A stretch of DNA of 64,000 nucleotides from Microbacterium hominis (GTDB lineage Bacteria; Actinomycetota; Actinomycetes; Actinomycetales; Microbacteriaceae), in NCBI RefSeq assembly GCF_013282805.1, contig NZ_CP054038.1:2604001-2668000 (forward strand), read 5' to 3'. Positions within the stretch are counted from its first letter, which is position 1; the number at the start of each line of letters is the position of its first letter. The notes beneath the pieces were generated by a model, which saw only the letters and a list, made by a program, of their open reading frames with translations, had not been told where the DNA came from and ran no database searches. Below are positions 41,173-61,391 of this stretch, piece after piece. The translations under genes were made by a program, and so were the position numbers.

Positions 41173-41201
41173 TGTCAGAGGAGACGCCCGCCCGCGCAGG
41201 G

Positions 41202-41207: not shown

Positions 41208-41255
41208 TCTCACTTGGCTCACGCCTCGGTTGCCCTATCTCCTGGGAGATCCCAC

Positions 41256-43166: not shown

Positions 43167-44152
43167 CCGCCCCTGCCCCGAAGGCCCCGTTCGATCCCGC
43201 GTCGGCGACGATCGCCATCGTGACCTACAACCGGTCCGGACTGCTCACGCGGCTGCTCACCAGCATCGCCGGCATGGAGCCGAAGCCCGGACACGTCGTC
43301 GTCGTGGACAACGCCTCGGCCGACGACACGACGCAGGTCGTCGAGTCGTTCCGCGATCGCCTCGGCACCGAACTGGTCTACCTCCGCCTCGACACCAACA
43401 CCGGCGGCTCGGGCGGATTCAGCGAGGGCATGCGCGTGGCGTACGAGCTGGGCTCGGAGTGGATCTGGCTCATGGATGACGACGTCGAGGTGATCCCCGA
43501 CGGCCTCGCCAAGATGGGCGCGTGGGCGCCCCGGTTCAAGAGCATCCAGGGCCGGCGCTACGACTACGACGGCAGCGAGTTCTACTGGCAGTACCGCGTG
43601 GCCGAGCCGCTCGGCATCCCGATCCCGTTCGCCCCGGCGGGCTTCGACGCGTCGAACTACAAGGAGATGAACTCGGGCTGCTTCGAGGGCATGTTCATCC
43701 ATCGCGACATCGTCGGACAGATCGGGCTGCCCGACCCGCGGTTCTTCATCTACTGGGACGACCAGGTGTACGGGTGGCTCGCCTCGCGGCTGACCACGTC
43801 GGTGATCGTGAACGAGTTCGTGCTGCGGCGCACCCGCGAGATCAAGCAGTGGGACATGGGCGTGCGCCACATGAACGCCTCGAGCAACGCGTACCGGTAC
43901 TACATCATGCGCAATCGCGCATACATCAAGCACTACTACCGCTCGCTCGGCGTCTACCGCCGCATCCCGTTCGCCGCCGGCACCGCGCTCACCTTCGTCA
44001 AGGAGCTGATCCGCCTGGTGTTCGTCGAGCGCACGGTGCGCGGCACGAGCAACCTCTTCCGCGGCCTCCGCGACGGCGGACGGATCGCGCGCGACGCATC
44101 GTGGCGGCCGATGCCGCCGCTGGCGACCTCGGACGCGCCTCAGACCGCGTAA
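43163..44152 (+). CDS. GT2 glycosyltransferase, GlfT1-like candidate
   Basis: 329 residues of GT-A fold: 'IAIVTYNRSGLLTRLLTSI', 'VVVVDNASADDT', 'NTGGSGGFSEGMRVAYELGSEWIWLMDDDVEVIPDGL' (metal-binding DDD) and 'DPRFFIYWDDQVYGWLA' (catalytic WDD). The NTGGSGGF and DDD motifs are of the galactofuranosyl/rhamnosyl transferase type. Position next to glfT2 and the Wzm/Wzt exporter parallels mycobacterial glfT1 (Rv3782) beside Rv3781/Rv3783, so it may start the galactofuran chain. ATGA coupling with glfT2. Its last 13 bases overlap the convergent ATPase gene. Confidence 0.88.
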   Translation: MTAPAPKAPFDPASATIAIVTYNRSGLLTRLLTSIAGMEPKPGHVVVVDNASADDTTQVVESFRDRLGTELVYLRLDTNTGGSGGFSEGMRVAYELGSEWIWLMDDDVEVIPDGLAKMGAWAPRFKSIQGRRYDYDGSEFYWQYRVAEPLGIPIPFAPAGFDASNYKEMNSGCFEGMFIHRDIVGQIGLPDPRFFIYWDDQVYGWLASRLTTSVIVNEFVLRRTREIKQWDMGVRHMNASSNAYRYYIMRNRAYIKHYYRSLGVYRRIPFAAGTALTFVKELIRLVFVERTVRGTSNLFRGLRDGGRIARDASWRPMPPLATSDAPQTA

Positions 44153-44883
44153 TCGGCGTTGTACCGGTCGACGACCTCGGCGATCGGCCCGTCCATCACG
44201 AGGCGGCCCTTGTCGAGGTAGATGCCCCGGGTGCAGAACCGCAGCAGATCGCGCTCGCTGTGGCTGACGAAGAAGAGCGTGCGCCCGTCGGCGAGGAGCT
44301 CGTCGATGCGCGTGTAGCACTTCTCGCGGAACGCCTTGTCCCCCACGGCGAGCACCTCGTCGACCAGCAGGACGGGCTCTTCGAGCTGCGACACGACGGC
44401 GAACGCGAGGCGCACCTTCATGCCGTTCGACAGGTGCTTGTAGGGGGTGTCCTGGAAGTCCTCGAGCTCGGCGAAAGCGATGATCCCGTCGTACCGGGAG
44501 GCGACCTCGGCGCGCGACATCCCGTGCAGGCCCGCCGTGAGGCGTACATTCTCGCGGACCGTCAGATCTCCGACGAACCCGCCCGTGATCTCGATGAGGG
44601 GGGCGACGCCGCCGTTGACCCGCACCTCGCCCTCGTCGGGGATCAGCACGCCGGCGACGAGCTTGAGCAGCGTCGACTTGCCCTGGCCGTTGCGACCCAC
44701 GACGCCGATGGACTCGCCCGGCTGCACGTCGAAGCTCACCTCGCGCAGCGCCCAGAATTCGCCGGGCTTGGAGCGGCGGGACGAGTCCGAGAAGAGGTCC
44801 TTGATGCTGCGCCGGCCCCGCCGATTGCGGCGGAAGCGCACGCCGAGTCCGTCGACCTGGATGGCAAGACCCGATGCCGTCAT
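44140..44883 (-). CDS. Wzt-like ABC transporter ATPase for polysaccharide export
   Basis: A 247-residue ABC ATPase of the Wzt/TagH/Rv3781 type. A long N-terminal linker ('RFRRNRRGRRSIKDLFSDSSRRSKPGEFWALREVSFDV') precedes Walker A GRNGQGKST. Then follow 'PLIEITGGFVGDLTVRENV', signature LSNGMKVRLAFA, Walker B VLLVDEVLAVGD and H-loop VSHS. It ends shortly after the nucleotide-binding domain, without the C-terminal carbohydrate-binding module of O9a-type Wzt, as in teichoic acid and mycobacterial exporters. It overlaps the permease stop by one base (TGATG). Confidence 0.93.
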   Translation of the reverse strand: MTASGLAIQVDGLGVRFRRNRRGRRSIKDLFSDSSRRSKPGEFWALREVSFDVQPGESIGVVGRNGQGKSTLLKLVAGVLIPDEGEVRVNGGVAPLIEITGGFVGDLTVRENVRLTAGLHGMSRAEVASRYDGIIAFAELEDFQDTPYKHLSNGMKVRLAFAVVSQLEEPVLLVDEVLAVGDKAFREKCYTRIDELLADGRTLFFVSHSERDLLRFCTRGIYLDKGRLVMDGPIAEVVDRYNADYAV

Positions 44884-45689
44884 CACAGCTCCTTCAGCAT
44901 CGGTCGCTCCAGACGCCGGAAGGCCAGCATCCCGATCCCCAGGAAGGCGAAGCTCATGACGGCGCCGATCGCGACCACCCACGGATCCCACTCGCTCGGG
45001 AAGAACCCCATGCGGTAGAGCGCGAAGATGCCGGCGAGAGGGTTGAAGGCCGCGAGGGTCTCGAACACTCCGGGGAGGTCGGAGACCCCGTAGATCACCG
45101 GCGACGCATAGAACAGTGCGCGCAGGATGAGCTTGGTGGTGCGCTCCAGGTCGCTCCACAGCACGCACAGCGGCGCGACCAGCAGCCCGAGTCCGACCAG
45201 CAGCACGGTCTGCAGCAGCACTGCCACGGGCAGCAGCAGCAGTCCCCAGCCGACCTGCGCGGGCGTGTCGGTGAACCAGGAGGCGACGACGAAGATGGCG
45301 AGCACGGGCAGGGAGAAGAGGAACTCGACGCCCTTGGAGAGCACGATGCGATTCACCCAGATCGAACGCGGGATCGCCGTCGAGCGGACGAGCCGCGCGT
45401 CCTTGCTGAAAGCGCGCGTGAAATCGCCCACCGAGGCGTTGAACCACACCCAGGGCAGGAGCGCCGTGATGAGGAAGACGATGTACGGGTCGTGTCCCAC
45501 CGACCGCTCGAAGATCTGCGTGAACACGAACCAGTAGATCGCGCTCATCACGAGCGGGTCGAGGACCGACCAGAGGTACCCGAGGGCGCTGGTCGAGTAC
45601 CTCACTTTGAGGTCGCGCGCCGACAGCAGCCACAGCGAGTGCAGATAGCGCTGCGGCGAGCCGGGAGCGCCGACGGCGGCGATGGTCAC
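44883..45689 (-). CDS. Wzm-like ABC transporter permease for polysaccharide export
   Basis: A 268-residue ABC-2 permease with six membrane helices. N-terminal amphipathic 'LWLLSARDLKVRYSTSALGYLWSVLDPLVMSAIYWFVF' is the hallmark of Wzm/TagG/Rv3783. With the Wzt-like ATPase it should flip a lipid-linked polysaccharide, here plausibly a galactofuranan given glfT2, the GT2 and glf on both sides. GTG 45689 lies six bases after TAGACT, so the start is supported by a leaderless promoter. Confidence 0.93.
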   Translation of the reverse strand: MTIAAVGAPGSPQRYLHSLWLLSARDLKVRYSTSALGYLWSVLDPLVMSAIYWFVFTQIFERSVGHDPYIVFLITALLPWVWFNASVGDFTRAFSKDARLVRSTAIPRSIWVNRIVLSKGVEFLFSLPVLAIFVVASWFTDTPAQVGWGLLLLPVAVLLQTVLLVGLGLLVAPLCVLWSDLERTTKLILRALFYASPVIYGVSDLPGVFETLAAFNPLAGIFALYRMGFFPSEWDPWVVAIGAVMSFAFLGIGMLAFRRLERPMLKEL

Positions 45690-45695
45690 GATGCG

Positions 45696-45701
45696 AGTCT
45701 A
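45696..45701 (-). promoter_or_regulatory. -10 box of leaderless promoter for the Wzm/Wzt pair
   Basis: TAGACT on the minus strand, six bases before GTG 45689. The same hexamer precedes 49851, 54594 and 55671. Confidence 0.55.
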
Positions 45702-45712
45702 GGGTCGCCGGC

Positions 45713-46927
<1,215 letters not shown>

Positions 46928-48558: not shown

Positions 48559-49851
48559 TCAGGCGGTGCCGACGACGATGCGGGGCGTGCCCGCCCACGT
48601 CGCAGCGTCGGTGGCGTTGCGGCCGTCGACGATGAGACGGATGCCGGGGAGCTGCCCGGGGGAGAGCTCGCGGTAGTCGGCGTGATCGGTCTGCAGGATC
48701 GCGAGGTCGGTCTCGTCGCCCAGGGCGAACGGCTCGAAGCCGAGCGAGCGCAGCTCGTCGTCGGAGTAGAGCGGGTCGTGCACCCGCACCTGCGCGCCGC
48801 GGCTCTTGAGCGCCTCGACGGTCGGGAAGACCCCCGAGAACGCGGTCTCCTTCACCCCGCCGCGGTACGCGGCGCCGAGCACGACGGCCCGGGTGCCCTC
48901 CAGCGAGCCGAGCAGGCCCTCCGCCTGAGCGACGAGCCGCTCGGGCATCGAGGCGTTCAGCAGGCGCGCGGTGCGCACGATGTCGGCGTCGGGATCGGTG
49001 GACAGGTACAGGCGGGGGTAGACCGGGATGCAGTGCCCGCCGACGGCGATGCCGGGACGGTGGATGTGGCTGTAGGGCTGCGAGTTGCAGGCCTCGATCA
49101 CCTGGTAGACGTCGATGCCGTTGTCGGCCGCGAAGAGGGCGAACTGGTTGGCGAGCCCGATGTTGACGTCGCGATAGGTCGTCTCGGCGAGCTTGGCCAT
49201 CTCCGCGGCCTCGGCCGTGCCGAGGTCCCACACGCCGTTCGGGCGGGCGAGGTCGGCGCGCTCATCGAACTGGAGCACGGCCTCGTAGAACTCGCGGGCG
49301 CGCTGGGCGCCGGCTTCCGAGAGCCCGCCGATGAGCTTCGGGTACTTGCGCAGGTCGGCGAACACCCGGCCGGTGAGCACGCGCTCGGGAGAGAACACGA
49401 GGTGGAAGTCGGTGCCTTCGACCAGGCCCGAGCCCTCCTCCAGCATGGGCTTCCAGCGGCCGCGCGTGGTGCCGACCGGCAGGGTCGTCTCGTAGGAGAC
49501 CAGAGTGCCGGGGGTCAGATGCTCCGCGAGCGAGCGGGTCGCGGCATCCATCCAGGCGAAGTCGGGCTCCCAGGTGGCGTCGTTGACGAACAGCGGGACG
49601 ACGAGCACGACAGCGTCGGCGCCGGGGATGGCCTCGGCGTAGTCGGTGGTGGCGCGCAGGCGGCCCGCGGGCACCAGGTCGGAGAGCTTCTCCTGCAGGT
49701 GCGCCTCGCCGGGGAAGGGCTCGATGCCCGCGTTGATCGACTCGACCGTCTTCGGGTTGACGTCGACGCCGATCACCTCGTGACCGGAATCTGCGAACTG
49801 GACGGCGAGGGGAAGGCCGATCTTTCCGAGGGCCACGACGGCGATGCGCAT
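48559..49851 (-). CDS. wecC: nucleotide-sugar 6-dehydrogenase, WecC-type
   Basis: An NAD-dependent four-electron oxidation of a UDP-sugar to a UDP-uronate, most likely UDP-ManNAc to UDP-ManNAcA given the WecB homologue nearby. 430 residues: Rossmann 'MRIAVVALGKIGLPLAVQFADSGHEVIGVDVN', 'YETTLPVGTT', 'FSPERVLTGR', 'LAETTYRDVNIGLANQFA', catalytic cysteine C274 in 'AVGGHCIPVYP', then the C-terminal domain. UDP-glucose or UDP-N-acetylglucosamine dehydrogenase specificity cannot be excluded. ATG 49851 lies seven bases after TAGACT. Divergent from the CWB2-epimerase gene. Confidence 0.9.
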   Translation of the reverse strand: MRIAVVALGKIGLPLAVQFADSGHEVIGVDVNPKTVESINAGIEPFPGEAHLQEKLSDLVPAGRLRATTDYAEAIPGADAVVLVVPLFVNDATWEPDFAWMDAATRSLAEHLTPGTLVSYETTLPVGTTRGRWKPMLEEGSGLVEGTDFHLVFSPERVLTGRVFADLRKYPKLIGGLSEAGAQRAREFYEAVLQFDERADLARPNGVWDLGTAEAAEMAKLAETTYRDVNIGLANQFALFAADNGIDVYQVIEACNSQPYSHIHRPGIAVGGHCIPVYPRLYLSTDPDADIVRTARLLNASMPERLVAQAEGLLGSLEGTRAVVLGAAYRGGVKETAFSGVFPTVEALKSRGAQVRVHDPLYSDDELRSLGFEPFALGDETDLAILQTDHADYRELSPGQLPGIRLIVDGRNATDAATWAGTPRIVVGTA

Positions 49852-49858
49852 GGGTTCC

Positions 49859-49864
49859 AGTCTA
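49859..49864 (-). promoter_or_regulatory. -10 box of leaderless promoter for the wecC-type gene
   Basis: TAGACT on the minus strand, seven bases before ATG 49851. Confidence 0.55.
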
Positions 49865-49935
49865 GGCGGCGGCGTCTGGCACCGACGTCGGCGACCGCCT
49901 ATGCTGGCGGGCACCGACCAACGCGCGGAGGTGAC

Positions 49936-51882
49936 ATGCGCCGCTTTCGGCGAGGTGTGCTCGCAACTCTCACGGCGACCGCGATGACCGTTGCAGCGCT
50001 CCCCGCGCTGGCTGCCGAGCGCCCGGCCACTTCGTTCGCGTCGATCTCCGAGCCGGCGAACGTGGAACGACTAGCAGGGGCGGATCGATACCAGACGAGC
50101 CTCGAGGTGTCGCGCCGGTTCCCGCCGCAGGTCAGCGCCGTGTTCGTCGCGACCGGGCTCGACTTCCCGGACGGGCTCGCGGCCTCGGCAGCGGCGGCCA
50201 CCCTGGGCGGCCCGCTCATCCTGACGCGCCCGGGCTCCCTCCCCCCGGGTGTTGCGGACGAGATCGCACGACTCCAGCCGGAGCACATCTACGTGCTCGG
50301 CGGCCCGAGCGTCATATCCGAAGCCGTCCGCACGGCGCTCGGGAGGATCGCGCCCACCGAACGACTCGCGGGCGTGGACCGCTACGCCACGGCGGAGCGC
50401 ATCATCGATGTGACATTCGTCAGGGCACCGCGCATCCTGCTCGCCACCGGCAGGCTCTTCCCCGATGCCCTCGCCGCCGGTGCGGCAGCGGGCAATATCG
50501 GATCACCGCTCCTGCTCGTCGATGGAACCCGGGCGACGTTGCCCTCCGCCACGCTCGCCGCGCTGCGCCGCTGGGGCGTGTCGGAGGTGATGATCGCGGG
50601 TGGCCATGGCGCGGTCGATCTGCGCATCGAACAGCAGTTGCGGGCCAACGGATACACCGTGGCACGTGCTTCAGGGATCTCCCGCTACGAGACCGCTGTC
50701 GCGATTGCGGACACGGTTGGGCTCGTCGGGACCGAGAACGTGCTTCTCGCAACCGGAAGCGACTTCCCCGATGCCCTGTCGGGGGCGGCCCTTGCCGGCG
50801 AACGCGGCGCGCCGTTGCTTCTCACGCGGCCCACATGCACGCCGTGGAAGGTGCACGATACGATTCTGCGCAGCGGGGCGACGACCCGCACGATCCTCGG
50901 CGGCACCGGCGTCGTGTCGGAGAGCGCGGCAGCCAATACCGCGTGCAGTCCCGCGCCGCAGCGCGAGGCCGACTTCGCGACGACCGGCTGGGAACTGCGA
51001 TCAGGCGTACCCGTCCCGTACTCGGATCGGGCTCCGGTCGACGTGCGGGACCCCTCGATCGCGATCGACTCGAGCGGACTCCGGGTGTATCTCCGTCGGG
51101 ATACCGGCCAGAGAGCGGACCATCCGGTGGCGTATGCCCAGTACGGCATCTCGGCGCTGATGGAGTGGCAGCGCACCGGAGAGCGAGTGTGGCTCGACCG
51201 CGCTGTGCGACATGCGCAACGGCTCTCGGAGATCCGCACGGAGCGGGACGGCGCCTGGTGGTTTCCCTATCTGTTCCCGTGGACCTACTACGAGCGGACG
51301 ATGACCGTTCCGTGGTGGTCGGGAATGGCGCAAGGGCAGGCGTTGTCGCTGTTCGTGAGGCTTCACGCCGCCACGGCCGATCAACGGTGGGCGGACGCAG
51401 CCCACTCGACGTGGCGGAGCTTCCTCCAGCCGCGTGAGGACGGCATCCCCTGGTCGACGTTCGTCGAGGACGGGTTGCTCTTCTTCGAGGAGTACGCCGG
51501 GAATCAGCCCCCGCTCAAGGTCCTCAACGGACAGATCTTCGCCGCATTCGGCGCGTACGATTACTGGCGGTCGACCGACGATCCCGAGGCCCGCCGGTAC
51601 GTGGACGGCGCTGCGACGACCGTTCTCGCGATCATGCCGGCTGTCAGGGTGCCGGGAGGGATCTCGTACTACTGCGTCCAGCGTGGGTACTGTCAGAGCC
51701 CGCTGTGGCAGAACGCTACATACCACTCCATCCATTCCTGGCAGCTCGACACTCTGGCCCGCCTGACGGGCGATACGCAGTTCGCCTCGTGGGCCGGCCT
51801 GCTCCGATCCGACTGGGTCCCGATGGCCCGTCTCGGGACTCCCCCGGAGGTGCTCGGCTGGCCGGACGGACCGCCGCAGTGA
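49936..51882 (+). CDS. secreted protein: three CWB2 cell-wall-binding repeats fused to a D-glucuronyl C5-epimerase-like domain
   Basis: 648 residues. Sec signal peptide (1-27, MRRFRRGVLATLTATAMTVA then ALPALA). Three CWB2 repeats (about 44-140, 142-240, 245-337) carry the 'ERLAGADRYQTS' and 'VFVATGLDFPDGLAASAAA' signatures, followed by the C-terminal domain (about 350-645). This has 'VAYAQYGISALMEW', 'WWFPYLFPW', 'PWWSGMAQGQALSLFVRLHAAT' (459-480), 'KVLNGQIFAAFGAYDYW' and 'YHSIHSWQLDTLARLTGD', the pattern of the glucuronyl C5-epimerase C-terminal family (PF06662). Such enzymes invert C5 of uronic acids inside a polymer. Clear GGAGG site before ATG 49936. Substrate is inferred only from the neighbouring wecC/wecB-type genes. 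Confidence 0.88.
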   Translation: MRRFRRGVLATLTATAMTVAALPALAAERPATSFASISEPANVERLAGADRYQTSLEVSRRFPPQVSAVFVATGLDFPDGLAASAAAATLGGPLILTRPGSLPPGVADEIARLQPEHIYVLGGPSVISEAVRTALGRIAPTERLAGVDRYATAERIIDVTFVRAPRILLATGRLFPDALAAGAAAGNIGSPLLLVDGTRATLPSATLAALRRWGVSEVMIAGGHGAVDLRIEQQLRANGYTVARASGISRYETAVAIADTVGLVGTENVLLATGSDFPDALSGAALAGERGAPLLLTRPTCTPWKVHDTILRSGATTRTILGGTGVVSESAAANTACSPAPQREADFATTGWELRSGVPVPYSDRAPVDVRDPSIAIDSSGLRVYLRRDTGQRADHPVAYAQYGISALMEWQRTGERVWLDRAVRHAQRLSEIRTERDGAWWFPYLFPWTYYERTMTVPWWSGMAQGQALSLFVRLHAATADQRWADAAHSTWRSFLQPREDGIPWSTFVEDGLLFFEEYAGNQPPLKVLNGQIFAAFGAYDYWRSTDDPEARRYVDGAATTVLAIMPAVRVPGGISYYCVQRGYCQSPLWQNATYHSIHSWQLDTLARLTGDTQFASWAGLLRSDWVPMARLGTPPEVLGWPDGPPQ

Positions 51883-51934
51883 CCCTCCGGTGGGTCCCGC
51901 GAGAGGCTGAGCACCGCGGTCGGCTGATGCCCGG

Positions 51935-53527
51935 TCAGTAGGTGGGGGCGGCGGGCTGCCCCAGGTACTCCTCGAGGGTCGCGAACCCGCCCGACCGGTA
52001 GTCCCACGAGAGCGTCGTGCCGACGTAGCGCAGATGCCACGGCTCGCTCAGGTAGCCGGTGATCGCCGTCATGCCGTCCCGGTAGCGCACGATGAAGCCG
52101 TATCGGTGGGCGTTCTGGGCGACCCACCTCCCCTGCGCGGTGGCCGCGAACCCGTCGAGGCTGCCGCACCCGCTACCGCACGCCACGACGTCGACGGCCC
52201 AGCCGGTCTGGTGCTCGCTGTAGCCCGGTCGTGCGGAGGCCTGCAGGGCCCGCTCCAGCCCGAGGTCGCGGATCAGGCGCTCGTGCGTGGCCTTCTGCGT
52301 CGCGTAGGAGCGGTACGCGCTGGCGTTGCCGATGACGCCCGCGCCGGCTGCCGCCGAGGCGGCAGCGAGCTGCTCGAGGGCGGCGGCGGCCTGCGCCCGC
52401 AGGGGCCCGCCTCCCGCCCCGCGGATGTTCGGCGTGCGCAGATCGGCGGGCGCGTAGGTGAGCGGCGAGATCGGGTTGCGCTTGTTGACCAGCACCCACG
52501 GACTCGTCGCTGCCGTGATGCTCTGGCACGGCGTCGCCGATCCCACCAGCCCGCGCAGCACACGCGGGCCGCCCAGAAGCACGCGGGACGTGACCGCGGC
52601 GCGCGTCAGCATCGCCCGTGTGGATGCCGGCGCGCAGAGCGCGGGCGACAGCAGCACGGGCGCGCGATCGCGTGCGGCCAGCGGCACCACGGCGGTCGCA
52701 TCGGCGAAGCCCGCGCCGGTCGACACGTACACCCGCGTCGGCGAGCCGAACTCCTTGGCGATCTGGACCGCGGTGTCGTAGCGGTCGGTGCCCGCGATGC
52801 GCCGCCAGGTGGCGCCGGATGCGGCGGCGACCTGACGAGCCACCGCATCGCGGACGACTGCGGCGCCGCCCAGCACGATGGCCTCGCCGGCCCCGAGCAC
52901 GCGCACCGCCTCGGTGGTGGGGACGTCGATCCCGGCGGCGGTCCCGTCCACCAGCACGAGGGGGGCCTGGCGGACGGCCGCCAGCGCGGAACCCGCGAGG
53001 GCGTCGGGGTAGTCGCGCCCCGTCGCCACGACGACCCGCGCCGCGCCGTCGGGGAATCCGTAGGCGGCGATCAGACGCGAGGTCTCGTAGCGGTCTGCGC
53101 CGGCGATCCGCTCGACGACGGGTGCGAAGTCGCGCAGCGCGGTCGCCACCTGCGTGCTGATGGCTCCCGTACCGCCCACGACGACGATCTTCTGGGGGGC
53201 GAGGCGACGCAGCTCCTCCCGAGCGGACGCCGGGAGCGAGGCGGTGGCGCTCAGCAGGACGGGCCCGCCGAGGCGCGCCGCGACGGGCCCGACCGACAGG
53301 CTGTCCGCGTAGACGGTGCCGCTCGCGACGAACGCGACCGGCACGCCCGCCTGCGGGAAGGCGGTGCGCGAGATCAGGGCGGCGGTCGCGTACCGGTCGT
53401 CCCCGAAGATGCGGCTGACGGCGACGGCCGCCGAGGCGGCTGGGGCGACGAACACGGCCCCCGCGACGACCGTCGTGACGGCGAGGGCGACCGCCAGGGA
53501 GCGACGGAGACCGCGCGCCGACCGCAT
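51935..53527 (-). CDS. secreted CWB2-repeat protein with LAS (M15/VanY-type) peptidase domain
   Basis: 530 residues. Signal peptide (about 1-33), three CWB2 repeats (about 36-335, 'RIAGADRYETSRLIAAYGF', 'VVVATGRDYPDALAGSALA') and a D-Ala-D-Ala carboxypeptidase-type domain (about 345-525). The zinc-site residues H439 (GYSEHQTGWAVDVV), D446 and H498 with catalytic E495 (SEPWHLRY) are intact. It should trim peptidoglycan stem peptides at the wall. ATG 53527 follows the wecB stop by two bases (TGACGATG), so it is co-transcribed with wecB. Convergent with the CWB2-epimerase; its three CWB2 repeats give the two proteins a common anchoring module. Confidence 0.92.
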   Translation of the reverse strand: MRSARGLRRSLAVALAVTTVVAGAVFVAPAASAAVAVSRIFGDDRYATAALISRTAFPQAGVPVAFVASGTVYADSLSVGPVAARLGGPVLLSATASLPASAREELRRLAPQKIVVVGGTGAISTQVATALRDFAPVVERIAGADRYETSRLIAAYGFPDGAARVVVATGRDYPDALAGSALAAVRQAPLVLVDGTAAGIDVPTTEAVRVLGAGEAIVLGGAAVVRDAVARQVAAASGATWRRIAGTDRYDTAVQIAKEFGSPTRVYVSTGAGFADATAVVPLAARDRAPVLLSPALCAPASTRAMLTRAAVTSRVLLGGPRVLRGLVGSATPCQSITAATSPWVLVNKRNPISPLTYAPADLRTPNIRGAGGGPLRAQAAAALEQLAAASAAAGAGVIGNASAYRSYATQKATHERLIRDLGLERALQASARPGYSEHQTGWAVDVVACGSGCGSLDGFAATAQGRWVAQNAHRYGFIVRYRDGMTAITGYLSEPWHLRYVGTTLSWDYRSGGFATLEEYLGQPAAPTY

Positions 53528-53529
53528 CG

Positions 53530-54594
53530 TCAGGCCCCGGCGAGGAGTGCGTCGATGACGCGGCGCGCGGCGAAGCCGTCGCCGTACGGAGCCGCATCGG
53601 TGTCGGCGGGCCGAGGACGGGTGACGCCCGCGGCGATCTCCTCCGCCGTATTGGCGAGCACGTTCCAGCCGAGCTCGATCGTCTCCACCCATTCCGTCTC
53701 GGTGCGCACGGTCGTGCACGGCACGCGCAGCAGGAACGCCTCCTTCTGGAGGCCCCCGGAGTCGGTCACGACGCCCGCGCTCGACAGGGCGGCGGCGATG
53801 AGGTCGGGGTAGGCCAGCGGCGCGTGGGCGATGAGGGAGCCCTGGGTGAGAGAGATGCCGTGAGCCGCCGCCTTGGCGACCACCCGCGGATGGGCCAGGA
53901 GCACGACGGGCTTGTCGAGCCCCGCGAGTCCGGCCGCGACCTCGGCGAGGCGGGCGGGATCGTCGGTGTTCTCGGCCCGGTGGATCGTGGCGACGTAGTA
54001 TCCGCCCGGCTCGAGGGAGAGCTCCTCCAGCAGCGCAGACGCGGTCTGGCCGACCTGGTCGCGCACCTCGAAGAGCACGTCGGTCATGACGTCGCCGACC
54101 AGCACGGTGCGCCCGGTCAGACCCTCGTGGGCCAGGTGGTCGACCGCCACCTGCGTCGGCGCGAGCAGGAGGTCGGCGGCGTGGTCGGTCATGACCCGAT
54201 TGTGCTCCTCGGGCATGCGGCGGTTGAAGCTGCGAAGCCCCGCCTCCAGGTGCGCCACCGGCAGGTGCATCTTGACGGCGCTGAGGGCGGCGGCGACCGT
54301 CGAGTTGGTGTCGCCGTACACGAGCACCCAGTCGGGCCGGTGCTCGTCGAAGACGGCGTCCAGCGCCGCGAGCATGGCTCCGGTCTGCACGCCGTGCGAG
54401 CCGCTGCCCACCCCGAGGTGCACGTCGGGCTTGCCGATCCCGAGGTCGTCGAAGAACACATCGGACAGCATCGGATCGTAGTGCTGGCCGGTGTGCACGA
54501 TGACGTGGTCGACCCCGGCCGCGCGGGCGGCCTTGGCGATGGGGGCGAGCTTGACGAACTGCGGGCGCGCGCCGACGACGCTGACGATCTTCAC
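53530..54594 (-). CDS. wecB: UDP-N-acetylglucosamine 2-epimerase (non-hydrolysing)
   Basis: Interconverts UDP-GlcNAc and UDP-ManNAc. 354 residues with the family motifs 'VVGARPQFVKLAPI', 'HTGQHYD', 'VYGDTNSTVAAALSA', 'HLEAGLRSFNRRMPEEHNRVMTDHAAD', 'ATIHRAENTDD' and 'GVVTDSGGLQKEAFLLRVPCTTVRTETEWVET'. GTG 54594 lies eight bases after TAGACT. First gene of a pair with the CWB2-peptidase. With the WecC-type dehydrogenase it would give UDP-ManNAcA, a building block of teichuronic-acid-like wall polymers. Confidence 0.94.
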   Translation of the reverse strand: MKIVSVVGARPQFVKLAPIAKAARAAGVDHVIVHTGQHYDPMLSDVFFDDLGIGKPDVHLGVGSGSHGVQTGAMLAALDAVFDEHRPDWVLVYGDTNSTVAAALSAVKMHLPVAHLEAGLRSFNRRMPEEHNRVMTDHAADLLLAPTQVAVDHLAHEGLTGRTVLVGDVMTDVLFEVRDQVGQTASALLEELSLEPGGYYVATIHRAENTDDPARLAEVAAGLAGLDKPVVLLAHPRVVAKAAAHGISLTQGSLIAHAPLAYPDLIAAALSSAGVVTDSGGLQKEAFLLRVPCTTVRTETEWVETIELGWNVLANTAEEIAAGVTRPRPADTDAAPYGDGFAARRVIDALLAGA

Positions 54595-54602
54595 GACAGA
54601 TC

Positions 54603-54608
54603 AGTCTA
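54603..54608 (-). promoter_or_regulatory. -10 box of leaderless promoter for wecB
   Basis: TAGACT on the minus strand, eight bases before GTG 54594. Confidence 0.5.
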
Positions 54609-54618
54609 GGCGGCCCGG

Positions 54619-55671
54619 TCAGAACACCCGGCGGACGAACGGCACGCGGCGGGCGGCGATCGCGATCGCGAAGGAGATCACGACGACGAGGATCCACAGG
54701 AGGAGCGCGATCGGCAGCGACCGGTCGGCGGGGACGAAGGCCGGAATCAGGAGCCGCAGACCGACGAGAACGACGAAGTGCACGAGGAAGACGCCGAACG
54801 ACGCGTCTGACAGAGTCACCAGCGCGCGCCGCACGGCCGGCTTCGGTCTCCATGCCGCCGCCAGCCCGACGACCGCGAGGAACAGGCAGACCGTGGCGAT
54901 CATCGTCGGCAGCGAGGTGTAGCCGACCGGGAGGATCGCCCGCAATGCCGTGCCCGGCTCGGCGGCCCCGTACTCCCAGACGATGCCGGCGAGCACGATC
55001 GCCGCGACCGCCAGTGCGATCAGCGCCCGGGAGCGGCGGAGCACGATCCCGCTCAGGGCGAATCCCGCGACGAAGTAGCCGACGTACGGGAGCCACTGCG
55101 TGAACGCGCTGAGCTGAAGGGTGCGTGTCACGCCGCCCCATGTCAGGACCGCTGCGGTGGTGTACGCGAGCGCCGTGACCAGCAGCAGCACGCCGGCGAG
55201 GGCCAGGCCGCGACGCCGGTCGCCATCGCGCAGGAAGGGCCAGATCACGGGCGCGACCGCGTAGAGCCCGACGATGAGCCAGAGGAAGTAGAGGTGCGTG
55301 TACGGTGTGCCGTCCGCGAGCAGCTGCACCACGGTGCCGAGCGGGAGCTCCTGCCCGCTCATGCCCGCACGCACCACCCAGAGGTAGAAGACCTGCCAGA
55401 ACACGAACGCCGGTCCGAGCCGGAGCAGGCGCTTGCGGTAGAAGTGACCGGGTCCGCTGTCCTGGGCGCGTGACGTGAGCAGCAGGGCACCGCTGACGAG
55501 CACGAACATCGGGACCACCCAGACGAATCCGAGGTCGATCGCGACGGCCGCCCACCACGTCGCGCTCCCCCGGACATCGGGGTTCCCCACGATCGCGCCG
55601 AACACGTGGATCGCGATCACCCCGATAATCGCGATCACGCGCAGGAGGTCGAGTGCCGGCTGCCGTTCCAC
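54619..55671 (-). CDS. acyltransferase-3 family membrane protein (OafA/WecH-like)
   Basis: 350 residues, about ten membrane helices. The family start 'ERQPALDLLRVIAIIGVIAIHVFGAI' includes the conserved R and H (H22 region) of acyltransferase-3 proteins, and 'LSDASFGVFLVHFVVLVGL' is the typical late motif. These enzymes move an acetyl or other acyl group from a cytosolic donor onto glycans outside. Likely O-acetylates the polymer made by this region. GTG 55671 lies eight bases after TAGACT. Divergent from the GT4 gene. Confidence 0.9.
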   Translation of the reverse strand: MERQPALDLLRVIAIIGVIAIHVFGAIVGNPDVRGSATWWAAVAIDLGFVWVVPMFVLVSGALLLTSRAQDSGPGHFYRKRLLRLGPAFVFWQVFYLWVVRAGMSGQELPLGTVVQLLADGTPYTHLYFLWLIVGLYAVAPVIWPFLRDGDRRRGLALAGVLLLVTALAYTTAAVLTWGGVTRTLQLSAFTQWLPYVGYFVAGFALSGIVLRRSRALIALAVAAIVLAGIVWEYGAAEPGTALRAILPVGYTSLPTMIATVCLFLAVVGLAAAWRPKPAVRRALVTLSDASFGVFLVHFVVLVGLRLLIPAFVPADRSLPIALLLWILVVVISFAIAIAARRVPFVRRVF

Positions 55672-55724: not shown

Positions 55725-55730
55725 GTGCTG

Positions 55731-56822
55731 GTGCGCATCCTCATCGTCACACCGTGGTTCCCCACGGCCGGAGCGCCGCAGACGGGCCTGTTCGTGGCGC
55801 GGGAGGCGGAGGCCCTCGCCGAGGCGCACGACGTGCGCGTGCTGCACCTCGACTGGACGGGACCGGCCGGATCGCCGTCGGCACCGGCTCCCACGCCGTA
55901 CACGGTGGAACGCGTCCGGCTGCGCCGCTTCTCGCCGCTGGACGACCGGCGCGCGCGGCACCTCGTGCGCACTGCCGCGCGCGACGCCGACGTCGTCCAC
56001 ACGCACGCGCTCACGCTGCTGCTCCCCTGGCTCGCGACGGGCCGCCCGGCCGACCTGCCCTGGATCCACTCCGAGCACTGGTCCGCTCTCACGGCGCCGG
56101 AGACGGTGCGCGGCGCGCTCGCGGTCGCGCTGCGCCTGCTGCGGCCGATGCTGCGCCGACCCGACGTCGTCGTCGCCGAGAGCAGCCGGCTGGCCGCTGC
56201 CGTCGACGCGATCCGCACCGGACCCACCGCGATCGTGCCGTGCGTCGTGCCCGAGGTCCCGGTGCTCGAGCCTCCCGGCGGGGAGCCGGTGCGCCTCATC
56301 GGCATCGGCGGGCTCATCCCGCGCAAGGGACCGCTGCTGGCGGTGCGCACCCTCCGTGAACTCGTCGCGGACGGCATGCCCGCGGAGCTCGTGTGGGTCG
56401 GCGACGGCCCGGAGCGGGCGGCCGTGATCGCCGAGGCCGCGCGGCTCGGTCTCGCCGATCGGGTCGATCTCACCGGCGTGCTCGACAGCGCCGGCGTCGG
56501 CGCGCAGCTCGACGCGGCCCATGCGCTGCTGCTGCCGACGCAGGGCGACAACTTCTGCGTGGTCGCCGCCGAGGCGCTCGTCCACGGCCGGCCGATCGTC
56601 AGCGGGTCCGCGACCGGTGCCGTGGACTACGCGCAGCCGCGCGTGAGCCGGTTCGTATCGGACCAGCGGCCGGCGGCGTATGCCGCAGCGGTCCGCGAGC
56701 TGCTCGCCGACACGGCCGCGCTGTCGGCGGCGGATGTCGCCGCGACGGTCGCCGATCGCTTCACGCCCCGCGCCGTTCGCACCGCGCTCGAGGACGTCTA
56801 TCGTCGGGCGGGCACGTCGTGA
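55731..56822 (+). CDS. GT4-family glycosyltransferase
   Basis: 363 residues with two Rossmann domains. N-terminal 'MRILIVTPWFPTAGAPQTGLFVAREAEAL' and 'DVVHTHALTLLLPWLA'; C-terminal 'IGIGGLIPRKGPLLAVRTLREL', 'VWVGDGPERA', 'VDLTGVLDSAGV' and the donor-binding 'LLPTQGDNFCVVAAEALVHGRPIVSGSATGAVDY' with the E-x7-E-like region. A retaining glycosyltransferase for an envelope glycan; sugar unknown. Coupled to the next gene by a GTGA overlap. Confidence 0.9.
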   Translation: MRILIVTPWFPTAGAPQTGLFVAREAEALAEAHDVRVLHLDWTGPAGSPSAPAPTPYTVERVRLRRFSPLDDRRARHLVRTAARDADVVHTHALTLLLPWLATGRPADLPWIHSEHWSALTAPETVRGALAVALRLLRPMLRRPDVVVAESSRLAAAVDAIRTGPTAIVPCVVPEVPVLEPPGGEPVRLIGIGGLIPRKGPLLAVRTLRELVADGMPAELVWVGDGPERAAVIAEAARLGLADRVDLTGVLDSAGVGAQLDAAHALLLPTQGDNFCVVAAEALVHGRPIVSGSATGAVDYAQPRVSRFVSDQRPAAYAAAVRELLADTAALSAADVAATVADRFTPRAVRTALEDVYRRAGTS

Positions 56823-57892
56823 GCGCGCAGGTCGACGTCGTCGTCGCGGTGCACGACCCCGCGCGCCCGGTCGACCGGGCCGTGCGGTCCGCGCTGTCAG
56901 CCGCGGCTCCCGGCGTCGTGCGTGCGATCGTCGTCGCGCACAACACCGACCCCGCAGGCATCGGCGAGCGCCTCGGCGTCCTCGCGCGGCATCCCGATGT
57001 GCGACTCCTCGACCTGCAGGACGGCATCCGCAGCCCGGCGGGACCCTTCAACGCCGGGCTGGATGCCGTCACCGCACGGTTCTCGTCGGTGCTCGGCTCG
57101 GATGACGAGCTGGCGCCCGGGGCCGTCGCCTCGTGGCTGCGACGCGCGGACTGCACCGGTGCGGACGCGGTGATGACACGTCTCCGGCACGCGGGCGGCG
57201 CGGTCGTGCCGACGCCGCCGGTCCGGGCACTGCGGATCGGTGCGCTGGATCCGGTGCGCGATCGGCTGAGCTACCGCTCGGCGCCCCTCGGCCTCGTCTC
57301 GACGGCGCGCTTCGGCGACCTGCGGTTCGCGACCGGCCTCCCGGTCGGCGAAGACGTGCCCTACGTCACGCGCCTGTGGTTCTCGGGCGCCCGCATCGCA
57401 TACGACCGCCGCGGCCCCGCGTACCTGATCCACACCGACGTCGGCGGCCGGACGACGGTGGCGCCGCGCCCGATCGCCGACGAGCTCGCATACGTTCCGG
57501 TCGTGCTCGACGACCCCTGGTTCACCTCGCTCGCCGCGGACGCGCGTGCGGCCATCGCCGTGAAGCTCGTGCGCATCCACGTGTTCGGCGCGGTGACCAA
57601 TCGACCCGACCCGGCCGCGTGGAGCACCGCTGACCGCGAGGCGCTGCGCGAGCGGGCCGCGCGCATCCTCGCGTCCGGCGCCGGCATCGAGCGAGTGCTC
57701 TCGCGACGAGATCGGGCGGTGCTGGATGCCGCGCTCGATCCGTCGACCGACACGGCGATCCTCATCGAGCGCGCGCGGCTGCGGCGGCAGCGCGCGCACC
57801 CCGATGCACTGCTGCCGCGCGACCTGCGTCACACGCTGCATCGCGAAGCGCCGCTGCGGCTCAGCGCCGCTTCCGCGCTCCAGCTGCTCTGA
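56819..57892 (+). CDS. GT2-family glycosyltransferase, copy A of a duplicated GT2/GT4 module
   Basis: 357 residues. GT-A core with 'VDVVVAVHDPARPVDRAVRSAL' and metal-binding 'SVLGSDDELAPGAVASWLRRA'. Later blocks are 'SAPLGLVSTARFGDLRFATGLPVGEDVPYVTRLWFSG' and 'AIAVKLVRIHVFGAVTNRPDPAAW'. Clearly paralogous to the GT2 at 61388-62485 over its whole length ('DPSRPIERAV', 'VMGSDDFLEPGAMAAWI', 'APLGLI', 'VGEDFAFG', 'LAIKLVRISVVGAVRSRP'). GTG 56819 overlaps the GT4 stop. Converges on the GT4-like gene with 12 bases between. Confidence 0.88.
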   Translation: MSAQVDVVVAVHDPARPVDRAVRSALSAAAPGVVRAIVVAHNTDPAGIGERLGVLARHPDVRLLDLQDGIRSPAGPFNAGLDAVTARFSSVLGSDDELAPGAVASWLRRADCTGADAVMTRLRHAGGAVVPTPPVRALRIGALDPVRDRLSYRSAPLGLVSTARFGDLRFATGLPVGEDVPYVTRLWFSGARIAYDRRGPAYLIHTDVGGRTTVAPRPIADELAYVPVVLDDPWFTSLAADARAAIAVKLVRIHVFGAVTNRPDPAAWSTADREALRERAARILASGAGIERVLSRRDRAVLDAALDPSTDTAILIERARLRRQRAHPDALLPRDLRHTLHREAPLRLSAASALQLL

Positions 57893-57904: not shown

Positions 57905-59029
57905 TCATCCGGCGAGCGCGTCGATCGCGCGCTTCCACACGAGCACCTGCGACTCGCTCGACAGCTCGCGCGCGTGCGCGTGCGACGCGGCCTTGAAGCC
58001 GTCGACAGCCGCCGCATCGATGCCGTCGATCGTCGCGGTGAGCGCGCCCGCGGTGAAGTCGGCCGTCACGGCGCCGACCCCGAACCCGGTGACGTACTCG
58101 GCCATCTCGGGCGACGGTCCCACGATCACGCCCAGGCGCGCCTGCACGTAGTCGAAGATCTTGTTCGGCAGCGCCCAGCGGTTGTTGAAGTTGACCGGGG
58201 GCAGGATGTGGATGCCGGCGTCGTACGCGCTGAGGGTCTCGGCGAGCTCGGCGTACGGCACCGGATCGTGCACCGTCACCCGGCCGGCCGACGCGGCCGC
58301 GCGCTCCTTCAGCTCGGCGAGGTACGCGGCGTCGTTCGGCGTCAGGTACAGGTCGAGCGTCGCGCCGCCGGCCGAGGAGGCGACGCCCTCGACGATGGTC
58401 TCGAGGTGGCGGTTGCGCAGGGCCGCGCCCGAGTGCACGTAGCGCGTCGGCGTGTGGGCAGGGGTCGGGGCGAGCTCGCGGTACGGCGCGGCGTTGGTCA
58501 CCACGGCGGGCGCGAAGCCGAACACGCGCTCGTACTCGCGGGCGAGCCCCCGGCTGACGGTCGACCACGACGCGGCCCGGGCGACGTGTGTGCGGCACAT
58601 CCACTCGATGAAGGGCTTCACGAACAGCCGGAACCGCAGCATCTCCTCGTGCTGGCGCGGCGAATACTCGTGGAGGTCGGCGTGCACGCCGCGCGCCGGA
58701 TCCAGCGAGAGCGCGAGGGGCACGGCATCCACATCGTCGGCGAGCACGATGTCGAACGTGCGCGCGGCGAGCCCGTCGCGCGCTGCCGCGACTGCGGCGT
58801 TCGACCAGTAGGCGCGGCGATACCGGCGGAGCACGACGTCGAGGCGTGGATAGCGCCAGATCGGGTGCTCGTCGGGCACCCGCACGTGCGCGGCGACCCC
58901 GTCGGGAGCCGGCCCGTAGCCGCACGTGGTCACCTCGTACTCGTCGCGCAGGAGCGCGACCTGCTTGAGGACGCGCGCGTCGGAGGCGATGGGCGAGAAC
59001 GACAGGATCAGCAGGCGGGTCTTCGTCAT
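57905..59029 (-). CDS. GT4-like glycosyltransferase, copy A of a duplicated module
   Basis: 374 residues. 'LLILSFSPIASDARVLKQVALLRDEYEVTTCGYGPAP', 'ADLHEYSPRQHEE', 'STVSRGLAREYERVFGFAPAVVTNAAPYRELAP', 'RYVHSGAALRNRHLETIVEGV' and 'YDAGIHILPPVNFNNRWALPNKIFDYVQARLGVIVGPSPEMAEYV' are almost the same as in the gene at 60255-61391. The two-domain GT-B layout and 'NKIFDYVQARLGV' region fit GT4. ATG 59029 overlaps the preceding stop by four bases, so it is the last gene of a five-gene coupled run (64000 to 57905, minus strand). Confidence 0.88.
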   Translation of the reverse strand: MTKTRLLILSFSPIASDARVLKQVALLRDEYEVTTCGYGPAPDGVAAHVRVPDEHPIWRYPRLDVVLRRYRRAYWSNAAVAAARDGLAARTFDIVLADDVDAVPLALSLDPARGVHADLHEYSPRQHEEMLRFRLFVKPFIEWMCRTHVARAASWSTVSRGLAREYERVFGFAPAVVTNAAPYRELAPTPAHTPTRYVHSGAALRNRHLETIVEGVASSAGGATLDLYLTPNDAAYLAELKERAAASAGRVTVHDPVPYAELAETLSAYDAGIHILPPVNFNNRWALPNKIFDYVQARLGVIVGPSPEMAEYVTGFGVGAVTADFTAGALTATIDGIDAAAVDGFKAASHAHARELSSESQVLVWKRAIDALAG

Positions 59030-60258
59030 GACGGCAGGAGTCCTCTCACGAGCTCGGCGGCGCGGCGGCCGGTGATCCGGACGTCGTATCGCTGCGCCCA
59101 GACGCGGCGCGGGTCGAAGGCGTCATCGGGGTCATCGAGCACGCGGCGTACCGCCGCCGCGATCTGCCCGGGGGTCGCGTCGGGCGCCACGAGCACGCCC
59201 GAGCCGAGGTCCTCCCCCACGATCTCCGGCGTGCCGCCGACGGCGGTCGCGACCACGGGGACGCCGTGCGCGATCGCCTCCATGATGCTCACCGGAACAC
59301 CCTCGCTGCTGCTCGCGTTGACGAAGACGTCCACGCGGTGCGAGGCGTAGAACCCGGTGACCTCGTCGTGCGCGGTGTGGCCGCGCAGCTCGATCCGCAG
59401 CCCGGCGGGTGCCGTGGCCGCGGCCGTGCACAGTGCGTCCAGACCGGGGCCCCCGCCGAAGTGCACCCACCGCACGGGGCTCCCGTCCGGCGATTCCGCG
59501 AGTTCGCGGACGGCATCGAGGACGAGGTCGACGCGCTTGACCGCCGTGACGGCCGAGCACGACACGATGACGCGCTCGGCTCCCCGCGGCGCGCGCGCGA
59601 TCGAGACCGGACCGGGAACCCCGAGGCGGCTCACGACCGTCTTCGCGTCGAGGCGCGGATCGCGGTACGCGTCGTGCAGGTGCTGTGCGGTTCGGTCGGC
59701 GATCGCGAGCACCCGGTCGGCGCGGGAGAACAGGAACGGCCGGAACGGCAGGTATCCGCTCGGCTGCTCCGCCTCGATCAGGTCGTAGCGGTGCAGGCGC
59801 ACCGCGCGCGCCGTGACGCCCGTCAGCCACGGCAGGCCGAGGCCGCCGCCCATGCCCCAGAACGCGTACGCCACCGTCCGGGGCGCCTGTGCGATCGCCT
59901 CGCGGACGGCAGGATGCTCAGCCTGCAGGATGCCCGCGCGAGCGCCCATCAGGAAGAGCCGCAGATGGCCGCGCAGGCGTCCGGCTCGCGACTCGGCACG
60001 CACCGCGGCGGCCAGCAGCCGCAGCACGCGCGGCTTCAGGGGTGCCGTGAAGCGCCACAGTCCGCCACCCGTGCGCAGACGCCCGCCGAGCACGACGTTG
60101 CCGGGCATCGGCACCGGCGCGGCCGACCCGTCGCGCGCATCGGTGAAGACGATCACCTCGTCGAAGGCCGCCGAGAGATCCTCGATCTCGTTGCGCACGA
60201 ACGACGTGTCGCCGCCCGGGAACGGGTAGCTGTTCGTGAACAGGAGGAGGCGGGTCAC
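59026..60258 (-). CDS. GT4-family glycosyltransferase
   Basis: 410 residues: 'TRLLLFTNSYPFPGGDTSFVRNEIEDLSAAFDEVIVFT', 'AYAFWGMGGGLGLPWLTG', 'VIVSCSAVTAVKRVDLVLDAVREL', 'WVHFGGGPGLD', 'IELRGHTAHDEVTGFYASHRVDVFVNASSSEGVPVSIMEAIAHGVPVVATAVGGTPEIV' (EGVPVSIMEA holds the E-x7-E motif). A standard retaining glycosyltransferase. GTG 60258 overlaps the previous stop (GTGA). Sits between the two paralogous GT4-like copies. Confidence 0.92.
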   Translation of the reverse strand: MTRLLLFTNSYPFPGGDTSFVRNEIEDLSAAFDEVIVFTDARDGSAAPVPMPGNVVLGGRLRTGGGLWRFTAPLKPRVLRLLAAAVRAESRAGRLRGHLRLFLMGARAGILQAEHPAVREAIAQAPRTVAYAFWGMGGGLGLPWLTGVTARAVRLHRYDLIEAEQPSGYLPFRPFLFSRADRVLAIADRTAQHLHDAYRDPRLDAKTVVSRLGVPGPVSIARAPRGAERVIVSCSAVTAVKRVDLVLDAVRELAESPDGSPVRWVHFGGGPGLDALCTAAATAPAGLRIELRGHTAHDEVTGFYASHRVDVFVNASSSEGVPVSIMEAIAHGVPVVATAVGGTPEIVGEDLGSGVLVAPDATPGQIAAAVRRVLDDPDDAFDPRRVWAQRYDVRITGRRAAELVRGLLPS

Positions 60259-61391
60259 CGCTTCCTCTTCGCCATCAGGCGCGTGATGATCGCCTCCCAC
60301 ACCTCGACCTGACGCTCGCCGGCGAGCTCCTCGGCGTGACGGTCGGCGTTGCTCTTGAAGCGGGCCACCGACTCCACGGTGAGCCGATCGAGGGCGGCCG
60401 TGGTCGCCTCGACCGTGAAGTCGTCGGCGATCTCGCCCACGTCGTAGGTCTCGACGTAGAACGCCATCTCCTCAGACGGGCCGATGAGCACGCCGAGGCG
60501 GGCCTGGATGTAGTCGAACAGCTTGTTCGGGAGGGCGAGCTTGTTGTTGAAGTTGATCGGCGGGAGCACGTGGATGCCGACATCGTACGCGGGGAGGGTC
60601 GCGGCCAGCTGCGCGTACGGCACGGGATCGTGCACGGTCACGCGCGAGGACGCGGCGGCGAACTCCTTGAGCTCTTCCAGGTACGGCGGATCGTTGGGGG
60701 TCAGGTAGAAGTCGAGGGTGACGTCGGCGGCTGCCGCCTCCACCGCCTCGGCCATCACGTGCAGTCGGCGGTTGCGCAGGCAGGCACCGCTGTGGACGAG
60801 GCGGATCGGCGCGGAGACGTCGCTCGGTGCGGCTTCCGAGAACGGCGCCGCGTTCGTGACCAGCTCCGCGCGGAATCCGAAGTTCTTCTCGTACTCGTCG
60901 ACGATGCCGCGGCTGACCGTGGTCCAGGCATCCGCTCGGGTGACGTAGCGGGCGACCACCCATTCGAACCACGGCGTGATGCGCTGGAACCACAGCGCGT
61001 TGTCGTCGTGGAGGCGCGGGCTGTACTCGTGCAGATCGGCGAGCACGCCGTGCCGCGGGCGGAGCTTGACGGCCACCGGGACCGCCTCGACGTCGTTGGC
61101 GATCGCGACATCGAACCGGCGACCGCGCAGCGCCTGCCGCGACCACTTCACAGCCGACAGGCGCCAGTACGCCGTGCGGTACCGCTTCAGCGTGATGAGC
61201 TTTCCGTCGAGGTCGTTGTACCGCTGGTCGTCGGGGATCGAGATGTGCTCGACGACGCCCTCGGGCGCCGGCCCGTAGCCGCAGGTCGTGACGTCGAAGT
61301 CCCGCGTGAACCGGGCCACCTGCTTGAGCACGCGGGCGTCGCGGGCGATCGGCGAATAGCTCAGGATGAGCATCGTCGGGCGGGAAGTCAT
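60255..61391 (-). CDS. GT4-like glycosyltransferase, copy B of a duplicated module
   Basis: 378 residues, paralogue of 57905-59029: 'LILSYSPIARDARVLKQVARFTRDFDVTTCGYGPAPEGV', 'ADLHEYSPRLHDDN', 'TTVSRGIVDEYEKNFGFRAELVTNAAPFSEAAP', 'RLVHSGACLRNRRLHVMAEAV', 'YDVGIHVLPPINFNNKLALPNKLFDYIQARLGVLIGPSEEMAFYV'. Four-base overlaps on both sides (ATGA with the GT2 upstream, GTGA with the GT4 downstream). Donor and acceptor unknown. Confidence 0.88.
   Translation of the reverse strand: MTSRPTMLILSYSPIARDARVLKQVARFTRDFDVTTCGYGPAPEGVVEHISIPDDQRYNDLDGKLITLKRYRTAYWRLSAVKWSRQALRGRRFDVAIANDVEAVPVAVKLRPRHGVLADLHEYSPRLHDDNALWFQRITPWFEWVVARYVTRADAWTTVSRGIVDEYEKNFGFRAELVTNAAPFSEAAPSDVSAPIRLVHSGACLRNRRLHVMAEAVEAAAADVTLDFYLTPNDPPYLEELKEFAAASSRVTVHDPVPYAQLAATLPAYDVGIHVLPPINFNNKLALPNKLFDYIQARLGVLIGPSEEMAFYVETYDVGEIADDFTVEATTAALDRLTVESVARFKSNADRHAEELAGERQVEVWEAIITRLMAKRKR

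Follow-up and report, generated by a model that had tools for sequence, protein, structure and literature searches.

A CWB2-linked GLCE-fold protein of Microbacterium hominis as a candidate wall-bound C5-epimerase of diacetamido uronates

Glucuronyl C5-epimerases of the GLCE type rely on five catalytic residues, E499, Y500, N510, Y560 and Y578 (PMC13308652, section 6). The same paper names one bacterial D-glucuronyl C5-epimerase, active on O-desulfated heparin (section 3), and states that alignment suggests a GLCE-like mechanism for the C5-epimerase of Bermanella RED65. CWB2 repeats have a different background: in Clostridioides difficile their polymer ligand is the polysaccharide PSII (PMC8881574). 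Among actinobacterial wall polymers, the teichuronic acid of Streptomyces griseus, associated with the utr genes, consists of repeats of 2,3-diacetamido-2,3-dideoxy-mannuronic acid (ManNAc3NAcA) and N-acetylgalactosamine (PMC13274773). Amino uronates of gulo configuration are also found in nature: a polysaccharide of Vibrio alginolyticus contains 2-acetamido-2-deoxy-L-guluronic acid (L-GulNAcA; PMC7600630), and V. anguillarum and V. ordalii have a gulo 2,3-diacetamido uronate (PMC3210612). Here we describe a gene from a stretch of 64,000 nucleotides of Microbacterium hominis (contig NZ_CP054038.1, positions 2,604,001 to 2,668,000; referred to as the window), which joins CWB2 repeats to a domain of the GLCE family (PF06662) and lies among genes for nucleotide-sugar and polymer synthesis.

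The gene is found at 49936-51882 on the + strand, where GGAGGTGAC-ATG precedes and opens the frame, and encodes a protein of 648 residues. Residues 1 to about 26 were read by eye as a signal peptide. Pfam identifies three CW_binding_2 repeats at approximately 40-336 (E 1.7e-55) and a C5-epim_C domain (PF06662) at 443-619 (E 1.6e-27), the latter at 96.7 bits against a curated cut-off of 23.3. In the predicted models the three repeats form a CWB2 trimer fold, and residues 357-631, approximately, form a GLCE-like α/α barrel; matches to the CWB2 trimers of C. difficile and to human GLCE score far above other folds. The structural match to GLCE is restricted to the barrel, the residues ahead of it being the CWB2 repeats, and the N-terminal β-hairpin and central β-sandwich of animal GLCE had no dedicated search. 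This is the single PF06662 match in the source genome (one contig of 3.9 Mb), and a PHROGs search matched the CWB2 part alone. A first-pass annotation, made from the sequence, had proposed a secreted protein joining three CWB2 repeats to a PF06662 domain, and suggested a profile search and a structural comparison with human GLCE. Both bear it out: the profile score is well clear of its cut-off, the barrel is matched and the catalytic tyrosines are kept. An alginate-type C5-epimerase was considered and rejected, since Pfam at E 0.001 matched only PF04122 and PF06662 in the protein; there is also no alginate epimerase among the structural matches listed, which in itself rules out nothing. The family, fold, catalytic positions, CWB2 fold, gene linkage and pathway co-occurrence reported here are computational observations. 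We regard the assignment as a uronate C5-epimerase of GLCE fold as strong; the protein is presumably secreted and active, and its three CWB2 repeats would anchor it to the wall.

The catalytic positions were paired with those of human GLCE by profile sequence alignment, not by superposed structures, and were counted over 120 rows, leaving out the window protein itself (P0002). E519-Y520 (codons at 51490-51495, + strand) pair with E499-Y500, with E in 111 rows and Y in 109 (F in the other 11). N531 (51526-51528, +) pairs with N510, and Y596 (51721-51723, +) with Y578, both being present in 120/120 rows. The counterpart of Y560 is ambiguous by one residue, the human alignment pointing to Y578 and the zebrafish alignment to Y579 (51667-51672, +); Y579 is found in 120/120 rows and Y578 in 98/120. 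All five positions are kept in the window protein, as they are in 106/120 rows in all, while 14/120 rows have lost at least one. The first-pass annotation had named loss of the catalytic tyrosines as a reason to give up the idea of an epimerase, and by alignment none is lost. It is worth adding that Agromyces has tandem CWB2-PF06662 pairs (L015 8453-13024 and L017 8456-13075), whose second copies (L015 10988 and L017 10949) carry G or A for the catalytic E and F for Y520, but retain N, Y and Y. The E-less partners may be inactive regulators or lectins.

The fusion is not peculiar to this locus. PF04122 and PF06662 occur together in 100 of the 119 other homologues among the matches listed (120 of 154, one being the window protein), and their hosts include Microbacterium, Agromyces, Leifsonia, Diaminobutyricibacter, Mycetocola and a Bowdeniella metagenome-assembled genome. 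The survey of such fusions that had been suggested thus finds them well beyond the source genome. PF06662 is present in 9 of 148 relatives (source genome included), 4 of the 9 belonging to the genus, and the gene is therefore patchy: the fusion is recurrent in Microbacteriaceae, yet patchy. On a tree of 88 domains, 21 of them with CWB2, the CWB2 label requires at least five changes, gains and losses together. The coupling may thus have evolved on more than one occasion, the CWB2-bearing members from Chloroflexota (L041, L055) and Bacillota (L042) being among the cases.

A clue to the sugar comes from the 2-epimerase encoded at 53530-54594 (- strand). This enzyme scores 241 bits with the UDP-N-acetylglucosamine (UDP-GlcNAc; UDP, uridine diphosphate) 2-epimerase 4neq, and 110 bits with 1f6d, which we take to be the E. 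coli enzyme. It scores 366 bits with the Thermus thermophilus 2-epimerase 8sxv, which acts on UDP-GlcNAc3NAcA, the gluco counterpart of UDP-ManNAc3NAcA (PMC10622841). In T. thermophilus numbering, Trp307, Ala18 and Tyr96 mark 2-epimerases of the GlcNAc3NAcA type (PMC10622841). The window enzyme agrees at two of the three sites (W302 and Y93, with L16 replacing Ala), and its W302 stands where UDP-GlcNAc-type enzymes have Arg. The same W, L and Y are found in 13/13 homologues, at 64% identity or above, from the flanks of epimerase loci. The first-pass annotation called the gene wecB. A 2-epimerase is indeed present, and it scores above the TIGR00236 (wecB) cut-off, but on sequence matches to structure chains it lies nearer the WbpI type, and would convert UDP-GlcNAc3NAcA to UDP-ManNAc3NAcA.

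The remaining genes of such a pathway lie on either side. The dehydrogenase at 48559-49851 (- strand), divergent from the epimerase gene, is a nucleotide-sugar 6-dehydrogenase of the WecC/WbpA kind by family profile matches, and is nearest to UDP-ManNAc dehydrogenases. Genes of the WbpB, WbpE and WbpD kinds follow 1.5-4.2 kb beyond the window end; in coordinates extended by continuing the window numbering past 64000, profile matches place a GFO/IDH/MocA oxidoreductase (WbpB kind) at 65534-66520, a DegT aminotransferase (WbpE kind) at 66520-67617 and a hexapeptide acetyltransferase (WbpD kind) at 67614-68222. The best NCBIfam match of the oxidoreductase is UDP-GlcNAc 3-dehydrogenase (204 bits, cut-off 450), and the best PDB match of the acetyltransferase is a lipopolysaccharide biosynthesis acetyltransferase. 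The labels WbpB, WbpE and WbpD rest on enzyme kind, as described in PMC10622841, and on context. Five enzyme kinds that would jointly yield UDP-ManNAc3NAcA are encoded together, the dehydrogenase and 2-epimerase in the window and the other three just past its end. Because the 2-epimerase is nearest the WbpI type and these three kinds lie close by, the locus more likely makes UDP-ManNAc3NAcA than UDP-ManNAcA, and the first-pass proposal that WecB and WecC make UDP-ManNAcA is ranked lower. It follows that the expected product of the epimerase would be L-GulNAc3NAcA, not GulNAcA or iduronic acid (IdoA).

The linkage recurs elsewhere. Among 84 PF06662 loci, counting pathway genes at 57% identity or above within the flank (some flanks are short), 16 have at least one pathway gene and four (L028, L065, L075, L085) have all five, so that the linkage to genes for uronate sugars which the first-pass annotation had noted extends beyond the source genome. 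Of the 17 loci from Microbacteriaceae, 9 carry one or more of the pathway genes, and WbpI is found in 8. Across the 148 relatives, the WbpI type occurs in 9/9 PF06662 genomes and 27/139 others (Fisher p=1.3e-6), and within the genus in 4/4 and 13/85 respectively (p 0.001). These 36 genomes have WbpI at 61% identity or above, except G140, where it is in two pieces (71% and 55%). WbpD is present in 60/148 relatives and covers 36/36 WbpI genomes (p 1e-18); among WbpD genomes, PF06662 is found in 9/36 with WbpI and 0/24 without (p 0.006). The WbpI type is missing from these 24 of the 60 WbpD genomes, none of which has PF06662, and a GlcNAc3NAcA polymer may therefore be made there instead.

A class-wide set of 394 genomes gives a similar picture. 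Here 19 genomes exceed the PF06662 cut-off (G297, under it, was dropped from 20 matches), 49 have the WbpI type and 14 have both (p 2.5e-10), the WbpI type being present in 14/19 PF06662 genomes and 35/375 others. The WbpI limit of 57% identity was set after seeing the tables; the next lower match, 50% in G337, was not counted, while a partial match of 75% in G280 was. The 80 epimerase loci used (the best 80 of 190 found) supplied 39 hand-picked PF06662 genomes, actinobacterial and mostly not short contigs, in many of which the linked pathway was known beforehand; the WbpI type is found in 38 of the 39 (partial match in G174) and is absent from G171. Two other explanations of the co-occurrence were tried and rejected. 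The co-located galactan gene Glf, in 112/148 relatives and 6/9 PF06662 genomes, shows no enrichment; and a link to any 2-epimerase fails, as other-type enzymes (37-50% identity, E <=1e-60) stand alone in 1/19 PF06662 genomes of the class set and 90/375 others.

We hypothesise, with confidence a little better than even, that the window protein is a wall-bound C5-epimerase which turns D-ManNAc3NAcA into L-GulNAc3NAcA within a teichuronic-acid-like polymer. In the cytoplasm, the dehydrogenase, the WbpB-, WbpE- and WbpD-kind enzymes (65534-68222 extended) and the 2-epimerase would make UDP-ManNAc3NAcA, which local glycosyltransferases would build with other sugars into the polymer. This would be exported via an ABC exporter (62482-64266), or via the ABC pairs at 44140-45689 or 72632-74277 (extended), and tied to the wall by an LCP protein (77635-79092 extended, a profile match). 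The epimerase, exported by means of its signal peptide and retained by its CWB2 module, would act outside the cell, and export of the polymer would precede epimerisation. It would then remove H5 from D-ManNAc3NAcA residues of the finished polymer, with reprotonation from the opposite face giving L-GulNAc3NAcA. Inversion of a D-manno uronate at C5 gives the L-gulo configuration, and the alginate and heparan epimerases, which invert C5 of their own uronates, offer an analogy. The case for ManNAc3NAcA as substrate is supported but indirect, and editing of the polymer on the wall is plausible. A broader proposal, that a whole class of wall-anchored C5-epimerases edits D-ManNAc3NAcA to L-GulNAc3NAcA in finished actinobacterial teichuronic acid, bringing an alginate-like mechanism to a Gram-positive wall, with CWB2 binding the edited polymer, is more tentative, and we would put it forward as a possibility somewhat short of probable.

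A number of observations weigh against this hypothesis. None of the five pathway genes was found at 57% identity or above in the (sometimes short) flank of 68/84 PF06662 loci, and 5/19 PF06662 genomes of the class set (G251, G300, G301, G311, G393) lack the WbpI type. Conversely, 27/36 WbpI genomes among the relatives have no PF06662, and the epimerase is therefore no standard part of the pathway. The genomes compared by Fisher tests share ancestry and are not independent, and so the p-values overstate the independent evidence. Within the pathway, the dehydrogenase scores UDP-ManNAc dehydrogenase models over TviB; the PDB matches listed for the oxidoreductase (best 60 of 71) include no chain under the name WbpB or WlbA; and the aminotransferase scores 224 bits with WbpE, while other PDB chains reach 279. 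The NCBIfam matches of these three WbpB/WbpE/WbpD-kind genes are under cut-off and mostly name other enzymes. The 2-epimerase passes the wecB model, and its Leu at the third diagnostic site matches UDP-GlcNAc enzymes. Elsewhere, the source genome carries two genes resembling UDP-glucose 6-dehydrogenases (L091 and L092; TuaD model 351 bits, PRK15057 model 624 bits, both under cut-offs), so UDP-glucuronic acid (UDP-GlcA) is probably made and GlcA is kept in view. Finally, we found no report of activity for any CWB2-PF06662 protein in the open-licence PMC literature.

The most substantial alternative is that the same wall-anchored C5-epimerase acts on a different uronate: D-GlcA, giving L-IdoA, or ManNAcA or GlcNAc3NAcA. 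GlcA to IdoA is the reaction from which the family is named, and is in keeping with the bacterial enzyme active on heparin cited above, with the two UDP-glucose dehydrogenase-like genes and with the one UDP-GlcNAc-type residue of the 2-epimerase. However, PF06662 follows the WbpI type, and follows neither WbpD alone (0/24) nor other 2-epimerases; and the flanks of 83 loci showed no open reading frame nearest to L091, the first UDP-glucose dehydrogenase (L092 was not queried). We therefore consider a different uronate unlikely, if well worth bearing in mind.

The other alternatives concern the reaction itself. The PF06662 domain might cleave the wall polymer during turnover, as a polysaccharide lyase or hydrolase, or might use its barrel for another reaction again; we think this improbable. 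Or the protein might not be catalytic at all, its CWB2 trimer and an epimerase fold that has lost activity together making a wall lectin or structural protein. In favour of this are the 14/120 rows that have lost at least one catalytic position, which include the E-less second copies in Agromyces, but the window copy keeps all five, as most rows do, and a non-catalytic role here seems very improbable indeed. C5-epimerisation of ManNAc3NAcA remains our preferred reading.

The neighbouring genes are consistent with a polymer locus. Convergent with the epimerase gene and 52 bp from it is a CWB2 x3 - VanY (LAS-type) peptidase (51935-53527, -), and beyond the 2-epimerase is an Acyl_transf_3 acyltransferase (54619-55671, -; Pfam), a candidate for O-acylation of the polymer. 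These two and the divergent dehydrogenase had all been listed in the first-pass annotation, and profile matches agree. Glycosyltransferases follow: GT4-type proteins at 55725-56822 (+), 59026-60258 (-) and 60255-61373 (-), weaker GT2-type matches under the Pfam cut-off at 56819-57892 (+; E 0.0012) and 61388-62485 (-), and a glycosyltransferase-like protein with a weak match at 57905-59029 (-). The ABC exporter (62482-64000, -, continuing past the window end to 64266) is a candidate flippase of lipid-linked oligosaccharides, and the extended ABC pair was likewise identified by profile match. On the other side, 38519-39844 and 39841-41172 (+) each encode a Wzy_C protein, of the O-antigen ligase/polymerase-like kind (profile match). 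A galactan-type module spans 38519-46849, with a GlfT2-like protein, a glycosyltransferase, the ABC_tran/ABC2_membrane pair at 44140-45689 and a UDP-galactopyranose mutase. Also near the locus are a further CWB2 protein (L095 10370-12385, PF04122 x3) and CWB2 joined to a Beta-lactamase2 domain (L095 18329-19993), and the polymer cluster contains a DUF6541 protein (L095 6657-8618, 514 bits).

What emerges is a recurrent but patchy actinobacterial PF06662 group, for which the linked pathway suggests a different kind of substrate, a diamino uronate, edited on the cell wall. If this is correct, such editing would alter how charges are spaced along wall polymers, and the polymers' shape. Wall polymers act as toxin receptors in Streptomyces (PMC13274773) and are also possible ligands for wall proteins. 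It offers a concrete substrate for testing, and possibly an enzyme for making L-gulo-configured diamino uronates. In the open-licence PMC literature, no paper pairs a cell wall-binding repeat with a C5-epimerase, and no title or opening of an abstract describes such a system in Microbacterium, nor does any among the 15 papers listed, of 43, that deal with C5-epimerases and actinobacterial walls; PMC2997053 held nothing relevant on guluronic acid.

Comparison with described systems shows which parts are familiar. With GLCE (PDB 6hzz, 4pxq) the window protein has in common the Pfam family, the α/α barrel and the catalytic positions. It differs in having a CWB2 module and signal peptide, with only 357-631 matching GLCE, and in a linked pathway that points to ManNAc3NAcA, whereas the substrate of GLCE is GlcA. 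It differs from the C. difficile CWB2 wall proteins SlpA, Cwp6 and Cwp8 in that its enzyme part is a C5-epimerase. The utr wall-polymer locus of S. griseus likewise has a dehydrogenase, oxidase, aminotransferase, N-acetyltransferase, 2-epimerase and acetyltransferase (PMC13274773); its polymer contains ManNAc3NAcA, and the main text of that paper has no mention of 'C5-epimerase' or 'guluronic'. The teichuronic acid of Micrococcus luteus (ManNAcA-Glc) is an actinobacterial wall polymer with a manno-configured amino uronate, but its ManNAcA is without the 3-acetamido group, and the abstract of PMC3005890 names no C5-epimerase. The WbpA/B/E/D/I pathway of Pseudomonas aeruginosa and T. thermophilus (PMC10622841) has the same five gene kinds, and Tyr and Trp at two of the three diagnostic 2-epimerase sites are common to both; the window differs in its Leu for Ala and in a dehydrogenase closer to UDP-ManNAc dehydrogenases. 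The CWB2-PF06662 group is therefore a variation on known enzymes, and not a new kind of enzyme.

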